33,831 bases of DNA. Source: Pelagibacterales bacterium SAG-MED31. Its GTDB lineage: Bacteria; Pseudomonadota; Alphaproteobacteria; HIMB59; GCA-002718135. The stretch covers positions 148,798 through 182,628 of the forward strand of contig JACWEB010000001.1 in the NCBI GenBank assembly GCA_014653715.1, read 5' to 3'. A model generated the notes under the pieces. It saw only the letters and a list, made by a program, of their open reading frames with translations, was not told the origin of the DNA and made no database searches. This document shows, piece after piece, positions 4,305 to 24,645 of the stretch (positions within the stretch are counted from its first letter, which is position 1; each line of letters starts with the position of its first letter). A program made the position numbers and the translations under genes.

Positions 4305-4742
4305 TTAACTAATAGGAATTAGTCTTGCTTTCTTTTCTTCTGGAATAATTCTTTCCAAATCAATATTTAATAAACCATTTAACAATTCAGCATTCTTGAT
4401 TTTTATATCTTCTGAAATAGTAAATGATCGTTCAAATTGTCTAGTAGAAATTCCTTTATGAATAACTCCATTTCCTTCTTCATTCACAACTTTCTCTTTT
4501 TGTTTGTTGCGAACAGTCAGATTATTTTCTTTAAGCTCTAATTCAATATCATCTTTAGAATACCCAGCTAAAGCTACTTCTATTTTATAATTATTCTCAT
4601 TTATTCTGTGAATATTATATGGTGGATAATTTGAATTGTGTCGCTCTGTAGACTCCAACATTCTATCAAATTCTTCGAAAATTGAGTCAAATCCAACTGA
4701 AAATGGTCTAAGCGAATTCCATACGGATAGGTTTCTTGTCAT
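4305..4742 (-). CDS. Hsp20/alpha-crystallin family small heat shock protein (IbpA-like)
   Basis: 145 aa; PPYNIHRINENNYKIEVALAGYSKDDIELELKENNLTVRNKQKE and GISTRQFERSFTISEDIKIKNAELLNGLLNIDLERIIPEE are typical IbpA-type crystallin sequence. Confidence 0.95.
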   Translation of the reverse strand: MTRNLSVWNSLRPFSVGFDSIFEEFDRMLESTERHNSNYPPYNIHRINENNYKIEVALAGYSKDDIELELKENNLTVRNKQKEKVVNEEGNGVIHKGISTRQFERSFTISEDIKIKNAELLNGLLNIDLERIIPEEKKARLIPIS

Positions 4743-4746
4743 AAAA

Positions 4747-4793
4747 ACTCCTTATTAAGCAAGTTAAAATTGGCACCCACAATGGCATACCAA
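4747..4793 (-). promoter_or_regulatory. ROSE-like RNA thermometer in the hsp20 5' UTR
   Basis: SD-proximal hairpin ACUUGCU-UAAUA-AGGAGU, where UUGCU faces AGGA with one bulged G, preceded by UUGGUAUGCC-AUUGU-GGGUGCCAA. Confidence 0.65.
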
Positions 4794-4801
4794 TAATTAA
4801 A

Positions 4802-4829
4802 ATATGGGAATTGTTACAATTATTTCAAG
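4802..4829 (-). promoter_or_regulatory. Sigma32 (RpoH)-type promoter of hsp20
   Basis: Minus strand CTTGAAA-N14-CCCATAT, close to the E. coli sigma32 consensus CTTGAAA-N11-17-CCCATNT. Confidence 0.75.
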
Positions 4830-4837
4830 TAAGAAAA

Positions 4838-5494
4838 TTATTTTTTTCGTATAAACGAAAGACCATCAGATAATGGGAGTAAAGAAAATTCCACTCTATC
4901 ATCTTGATTAATTTGTAAACTTAAATCACGAATAGTTTTTGTTTGTGAATCATTTTTAGAAGTATCAGCTACATCACCGTGCCATAGCATGTTATCAATA
5001 ATTATGATTCCATTTGATGGAACTAAACTCAGAGATAATTCATAATAATTTGGATAGTTATTTTTATCTGCATCAATAAAAATCATGTCAAAGGTGTGCT
5101 GACGATCAATTAAACTTTGCATCACATCCACACCTGATCCAATAATAGATTCTATTTTTGAAGTGAGACCATCCTTGTCCCAGTATTTTTGTGCCAATGC
5201 TAAAAACTCTTCTGAATTATCAACAGTAATAATTTTACCATCAGTGGGAAGTCCTCGGGCCATATATAATGTGCTTAACCCTGTAAATCTTCCAATCTCT
5301 AAACATGATTTGGTTTTCGATATATTTACAATAATTTCTAAAAATTGTCCTTGCTCTTTGGCAATTTGCATTTGGGCAACTTTGCCCAGTGCTTTGGTTT
5401 CCTTTTCTAATTCATCGACAAGAGGGTCATTTCGGTACCCTACGTTTTGAAGGTATTTGATTAGATCTTCATTAATTTTTAATTGTGTGCTCAT
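4838..5494 (-). CDS. Class I SAM-dependent O-methyltransferase (caffeoyl-CoA OMT-like)
   Basis: 218 aa; CLEIGRFTGLSTLYMARGLPTDGKIITVD, DMIFIDADKNNYPNYYELSL, IIIDNMLWHGDV. Confidence 0.92.
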   Translation of the reverse strand: MSTQLKINEDLIKYLQNVGYRNDPLVDELEKETKALGKVAQMQIAKEQGQFLEIIVNISKTKSCLEIGRFTGLSTLYMARGLPTDGKIITVDNSEEFLALAQKYWDKDGLTSKIESIIGSGVDVMQSLIDRQHTFDMIFIDADKNNYPNYYELSLSLVPSNGIIIIDNMLWHGDVADTSKNDSQTKTIRDLSLQINQDDRVEFSLLPLSDGLSFIRKK

Positions 5495-24013: not shown

Positions 24014-24559
24014 CTAACTTTTAAAAGTAGTAGCTCCTTTAAAAATATGTTTTAAAATCTTTTCGTACTGTGCTTTTTTTAAAGAAGTCAGAGTAGGCAT
24101 TTTTAAAGTTTTTCTTGTTTGAGAAATTCCAATAAAAGCAGAAATCATAAGGTCGTATTGAAGAGGACTAACTTTTTTTAATTTTTTTAAAATAGGATTG
24201 CGCATTTTCTTTATATTAATATTTTTAATAAAATTTCCTACAACGGGGTCAGATGAATTCATTATTAACATTTTTACAACAGTTGTTTCATCTTTTATGT
24301 CCATACTTGCTAATAACCAACCAACATATACATCAATAATATTATCATCGTTTATATCAAAATCATGAACCCAATCAAATGAACCTATAGTGGTCTTAAA
24401 TAAATTAAGCTTACTTAAATAATAGCGAGGAATAAGAGCAGCATCTACTTTTGCAGCCTTAGCAATTTGACGAACAGAAACATTTGAATAACCATAGTTC
24501 CAAAATAATTTTTTAGCCTCTTCAAGTATTTTAGATTTTGTTTTTTCAGACTTATTCAT
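24014..24559 (-). CDS. TetR/AcrR family transcriptional regulator
   Basis: KSKILEEAKKLFWNYGYSNVSVRQIAKAAKVDAALIPRYYLSKLNLF N-terminal HTH. Confidence 0.92.
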   Translation of the reverse strand: MNKSEKTKSKILEEAKKLFWNYGYSNVSVRQIAKAAKVDAALIPRYYLSKLNLFKTTIGSFDWVHDFDINDDNIIDVYVGWLLASMDIKDETTVVKMLIMNSSDPVVGNFIKNINIKKMRNPILKKLKKVSPLQYDLMISAFIGISQTRKTLKMPTLTSLKKAQYEKILKHIFKGATTFKS

Positions 24560-24584
24560 AACTTTTTATTAACACAAATATTTT

Positions 24585-24600
24585 GTCAACATTTGTTGAC
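24585..24600. promoter_or_regulatory. Candidate TetR-family operator GTCAACA-TT-TGTTGAC
   Basis: Perfect 7+2+7 palindrome in the 86-bp divergent spacer between the tetR gene and the SDR gene. Confidence 0.7.
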
Positions 24601-24645
24601 TTTTATCATATCTATACTTAGAAGGAAAGAAATTAAGGAGAATAA

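Follow-up and report, generated by a model that had tools for sequence, protein, structure and literature searches.

ROSE elements have been reported as the most common RNA thermometers. A leader is considered ROSE-like when a U(U/C)GCU sequence pairs imperfectly with the Shine-Dalgarno (SD) sequence within the 3′-proximal hairpin (PMC3669281). The closest counterpart to the leader described here is that of Pseudomonas ibpA, a two-hairpin RNA of 61-62 nt that is transcribed from a sigma-32 promoter (PMC3669281). Its hairpin II opens on warming and its hairpin I stays closed, as established by reporter fusions, probing and ribosome-binding assays (PMC3669281).

The stretch of DNA analysed here, called the window, spans 33,831 nucleotides from Pelagibacterales bacterium SAG-MED31, whose streamlined marine lineage is probably AEGEAN-169/HIMB59. 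By synonymy, AEGEAN-169 is SAR11 subclade V (PMC10308909). The leader of interest lies on the minus strand, within the 95 bases that separate an O-methyltransferase gene (4838-5494) from hsp20 (4305-4742). By analogy with Pseudomonas ibpA (PMC3669281), this leader is very probably a short two-hairpin ROSE-like RNA thermometer layered on sigma-32 transcription. The features that bear on this assignment are the following.

4305-4742, minus strand: hsp20, encoding a small heat-shock protein of 145 aa; its start codon is at 4740-4742
4747-4764, minus strand: hairpin II, the SD hairpin, ACUUGCUUAAUAAGGAGU, with bulged G4760 and a U4761-G4750 wobble
4748-4752, minus strand: Shine-Dalgarno sequence AGGAG, 5 nt 5′ of the AUG
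4758-4762, minus strand: ROSE anti-SD motif UUGCU, read from the sequence
4769-4794, minus strand: hairpin I, wherein 4783-4794 pairs with 4769-4779, with bulged G4786 and a UUG loop at 4780-4782
4802-4829, minus strand: putative sigma-32 (RpoH) promoter, with CTTGAAA at 4823-4829 and CCCATAT at 4802-4808

Read 5′ to 3′ on the minus strand, the leader is ...CTTGAAATAATTGTAACAATTCCCATATTTTAATTATTGGTATGCCATTGTGGGTGCCAATTTTAACTTGCTTAATAAGGAGTTTTTATG, and the portion from the hairpins to the start codon is UUGGUAUGCCAUUGUGGGUGCCAA-UUUUA-ACUUGCUUAAUAAGGAGU-UUUU-AUG. Hairpin I is formed by AUUGGUAU-(G)-CCA paired with UGGGUGCCAAU around the UUG loop. In hairpin II, ACUU-(G)-CUU is paired with AAGGAGU, wherein UUGCU is matched imperfectly to AGGAG, with a single bulged G and a U-G wobble. 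Such non-canonical elements are characteristic of the SD helix in ROSE, and both are found class-wide, the wobble position being occupied by U-G or C-G. There is only one further occurrence of UYGCU-N(3-12)-AGGAG in the window, and it has no start codon in the next 12 bases. Location in the leader of a small heat-shock gene is another ROSE trait, and the downstream product does belong to the HSP20 family (PF00011, E=2.1e-15); IbpA and IbpB are its top NCBIfam matches, both under their cut-offs. A first-pass annotation had proposed two hairpins 5′ of hsp20, with a UUGCU/AGGA pairing that contains a single bulged G. The two hairpins are borne out on the minus strand by the minimum-energy fold and by comparison of 57 distinct homologues, and the bulged pairing is evident from both sequence and fold, with G4760 as the bulge.

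There are 80 genus-level homologues of the window Hsp20, nearly all of them on contigs titled uncultured Alphaproteobacteria (AG-/AH- isolates), and they include MarineAlpha5_Bin7 and Pelagibacteraceae AG-337-I02. The UYGCU...(A)GGAG motif is located 5′ of the AUG in all 80, and the hairpin I core AUGCCA-NNN-UGGGU is equally invariant (80/80). The stem flanking this core exhibits compensated changes, with UUGG/CCAA in the window, UAUC/GAUA in homologue L068 and UUAG/CUAA in L060. Among 57 distinct genus-plus-outgroup sequences, whose alignment was fitted to the model structure and is biased towards it, 95.9% of pair cells are paired, compared with 47-55% in controls that slide the partner by 1-3 columns. 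Eleven pairs change on both sides in this set, including 10 of the 13 pairs of hairpin I, and none of 500 shuffles reaches the observed value on any measure. A class-wide alignment of 24 sequences (16 from other families and eight from the genus), fitted and biased in the same way, is 91.3% paired versus 45-58% when slid, and 16 of its 21 pairs change on both sides, including all 13 in hairpin I. The slid controls and a model-free anchored count agree in direction with the model-fitted alignments. Hairpin I therefore supplies, through its covariation, the 5′ hairpin selected as RNA that is expected of a ROSE element. One MAFFT alignment (A1) was discarded because it placed gaps in the stem of the window sequence and masked compensatory pairs, a problem that core-anchored and model-guided alignments solved.

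The SD hairpin presents a different pattern. Its centre (C-G, U-A, U-G, the bulged G, C-G and U-A) is kept in 24 of 24 sequences class-wide, except that U-G becomes C-G in three. These core pairs are invariant under the constraint of the SD sequence, and two-sided variation occurs only in the outer and loop-closing pairs. Since the central pairs never vary, they are beyond the reach of a covariation test.

The evidence for the predicted structure is comparative rather than energetic. The minimum-energy fold of the isolated leader has two hairpins and no more, one at 4769-4794 and the other, from which G4760 bulges, at 4747-4764; alternative folds are possible in longer sequence contexts. Neither the 54-nt leader (z of -0.26) nor a 56-nt piece (z of -0.55) exceeds shuffled sequences in stability. 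By itself, the SD hairpin is weak, at -1.3 kcal/mol at 37 C. Nearest-neighbour modelling predicts an approximately ninefold gain in SD accessibility between 10 C (0.012) and 50 C (0.112). This is not distinctive, as similar behaviour is seen for other genes of the window and shuffled leaders frequently come out as more closed. Folding energy and modelled accessibility were given no weight as support because neither discriminates from chance. Folding of the plus strand was also considered and dropped, since it is the wrong strand and is not stable.

A covariance model built from genus sequences only (R1) was searched against 289 genomes of the class. It finds four non-genus places at E<=0.05, all four of them directly upstream of an HSP20 gene. 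A second R1 match in the window (24557-24609, 19.7 bits, E=0.08) precedes a TetR-family gene and was dropped as a chance hit. Model R2 adds the four non-genus places and was searched against 385 class genomes. There are 12 non-genus R2 matches at E<=0.01, and every one is directly upstream of an hsp20-family gene (Pfam-checked), such that the strong matches are exclusively linked to hsp20. At E<=0.3, 15 of 22 non-genus places are immediately 5′ of HSP20 genes; the other seven comprise a sigma factor gene (L042, described below), a handful of unrelated genes and one place that ends without a reading frame.

The first-pass annotation had looked to the Rfam ROSE models for confirmation, which they provide only in part. 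At the gathering level, no ROSE family passes at the window site or in ten homologues. However, ROSE_3 (RF02523) is the top Rfam match at the exact site, with 26.2 bits and E=0.0017 (351 bases, 4227 families). The curated gathering cut-off of this family is 43 bits, and the window element is not a member of ROSE_3 as curated. In genus relatives the corresponding site scores 28.6-32.2 bits, and in a ROSE_3 search of five relatives' whole genomes the hsp20 site is the best match (E of 3.7e-5 to 3.1e-4). Among sampled alphaproteobacterial genomes, the Rfam cut-off is passed by RF00435 in one of 289 and by RF02523 in one of 385. Rfam misses the hsp20-linked elements of the R2 type in many families, including streamlined genomes of ~1.2-1.4 Mb.

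Upstream of the hairpins, CTTGAA-N15-CCCAT has a single match in the window (4804-4829, minus strand), where 0.20 would be expected by chance. CTTGAA-N15-CCCA[TC], with the identical 15-base spacing, is present in 76 of the 80 homologues. The window's genome, which is incomplete, has a match to the rpoH_proteo model under the curated cut-off, and matches over the cut-off are found in 36 of 41 genomes searched. Transcription would start at about 4794-4796, some 6-8 bases past CCCATAT and at the base of hairpin I; the leader would then measure about 52-54 nt. In another family (f10; L132, L136 and L140), a recurring inverted repeat of the TTGACA...ATGTCA type replaces the sigma-32-like motif ~45 bases 5′ of a ROSE-like hsp20 leader, possibly reflecting a different heat-shock control.

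The first-pass annotation had also named this leader ROSE-like, and the anti-SD motif, the covarying hairpin I, the ROSE_3 top match and the hsp20 linkage of R1 and R2 matches all support that name. If the leader acts as its Pseudomonas counterpart does, the heat-shock (sigma-32-type) promoter would yield an mRNA that begins at or just 5′ of hairpin I. At low temperature, hairpin II would hold UUGCU on AGGAG, by way of the U-G wobble and bulged G, and so exclude ribosomes. On warming, hairpin II would melt to free the SD sequence for translation of Hsp20. Hairpin I, the more stable of the two, probably aids the folding of hairpin II or guards the 5′ end of the mRNA. Such a device would offer a testable way for abundant, largely uncultured and regulator-poor ocean bacteria to sense temperature. 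A bolder proposal, which we consider rather doubtful, is that streamlined marine bacteria retain an ancestral short ROSE of the alphaproteobacteria that lies below current Rfam cut-offs, and that its opening range has moved to the temperatures of the sea surface. Translation of Hsp20 would then report ordinary ocean warming and not severe heat shock.

The weakness of the isolated SD hairpin, its undistinctive modelled accessibility and the presence of a strong sigma-32-like promoter would all be accommodated if control were purely transcriptional, with an SD hairpin too weak to repress and hairpins kept for mRNA stability or SD spacing. However, UUGCU, the bulged G and the U-G wobble recur in hsp20 leaders across the class, even though the anti-SD strand would otherwise be free to vary. 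Moreover, the proven Pseudomonas SD hairpins are similarly short, yet they melt and regulate (PMC3669281). Control by transcription alone thus appears improbable. The lack of excess folding stability might instead suggest that the pairing is fortuitous, given that any SD sequence in an AT-rich leader would find a partner, but this is hardly credible in view of the covariation with its controls and the strong model matches found only with hsp20.

Every class of RNA thermometer considered here sequesters the SD sequence in a terminal hairpin, and in ROSE-G, too, a G of the anti-SD strand is bulged (PMC12857270), so a fourU or ROSE-G element might present a similar outline. However, the sequence opposite AGGAG is CUUGCU, which lacks the four consecutive U residues of a fourU element. 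ROSE-G requires CUGCU, opposing G bulges and no wobble, whereas this leader has UUGCU, one bulge and a wobble. Assignment to either of these classes is therefore extremely unlikely, and the ROSE-like reading is preferred.

In one genome from another alphaproteobacterial family (G243), a ROSE-like leader (L042:1501-1560) is located directly 5′ of a sigma-32-family sigma factor gene, whose product matches NF005143 above cut-off. It reads AAGAACU-G-CU...AGGGUUCUU, then AUCUU-G-CUUAAUAAGGAGAU, and scores 25.4 bits with R2 (E=0.019); folding predicts an alternative structure for it. It would be unusual for the gene of a heat-shock sigma factor to carry a ROSE element, and no leader of this type was found in three other genomes of the same order.

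In three further loci (L148, L151 and L153, near 1501-1570), Rfam ROSE_3 matches are found 5′ of ClpB-like genes, as identified by eye from their N-termini. Here a bulged-G hairpin, GGGA[C/U]-G-CC..GGGUCC, comes after a CCATAT-type -10 element, which suggests that heat-shock mRNAs may have hairpin I in common as a 5′ module. No such leader was found for clpB in the other family of the window's order (f2), which has near-full-length ClpB-like proteins. In the window's own genus (f1, G001-G018), the ClpB model gives only partial matches, split into 2-396 and 525-852 and below cut-off; in most genomes the reading frames are 757-768 aa long. No true clpB leader is readable in this genus, as the ClpB model matches are partial and lie in short reading frames; ClpB may be absent from it, and the genomes are incomplete.

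Family f2 has hsp20 leaders (L001-L016) with three hairpins. The first is of the bulged-G type, and its changes are compensated, as in GUAGGU-G-CC...GG-ACCUAC (L005) and GAAAUU-G-CC...GG-AAUUUC (L006). It is followed by GCAG...CUGC and then by an SD hairpin, AAUUAAC-G-CUUAAGGAGGUUAAUU, wherein ACGCU replaces UYGCU and the helix offers no covariation to test. These leaders are unrecognised by Rfam ROSE_3, and in an unfiltered R2 search their best score, 13.8 bits (E=0.23), is not significant. The f2 leader nevertheless looks like a three-hairpin relative of ROSE.

No paper on RNA thermometers in this clade was found in a literature search. Among described elements, ROSE_3 is matched over its full model (positions 1-69), including both hairpins, a bulged G in each and the AUG; the window SD hairpin is, however, shorter than that of the model. 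Classical ROSE (Bradyrhizobium hspA, RF00435) shares the SD/anti-SD logic and the small heat-shock gene, but has three to four hairpins (PMC3669281), and a search of the window's genome with RF00435 gives no match. ROSE-G also has a bulged G in its anti-SD strand, but its anti-SD motif is CUGCU, its SD sequence contains a further bulged G, and it is located upstream of ABC transporters (PMC12857270). The best likeness is to Pseudomonas ibpA, which has two hairpins in a 5′ UTR of ~60 nt, imperfect pairing of U(U/C)GCU with the SD sequence in hairpin II, a stable hairpin I, a sigma-32 promoter (here putative) and a small heat-shock gene (PMC3669281). In contrast, the window element is alphaproteobacterial and AT-rich, its hairpin I is rich in U-G rather than GC pairs, its SD hairpin is rich in A-U pairs, and its temperature response is a predicted one. 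The first-pass annotation rightly called the element short, but it is not unusually compact, as a two-hairpin ROSE of ~62 nt is already proven for ibpA (PMC3669281). Compactness thus has a precedent, and the linkage of ROSE to small heat-shock genes in alphaproteobacteria is classical. What is new here is the breadth of lineages, the support from covariation, the co-occurrence with a sigma-32-like promoter that is itself conserved, and the many hsp20-linked relatives hidden by Rfam cut-offs.
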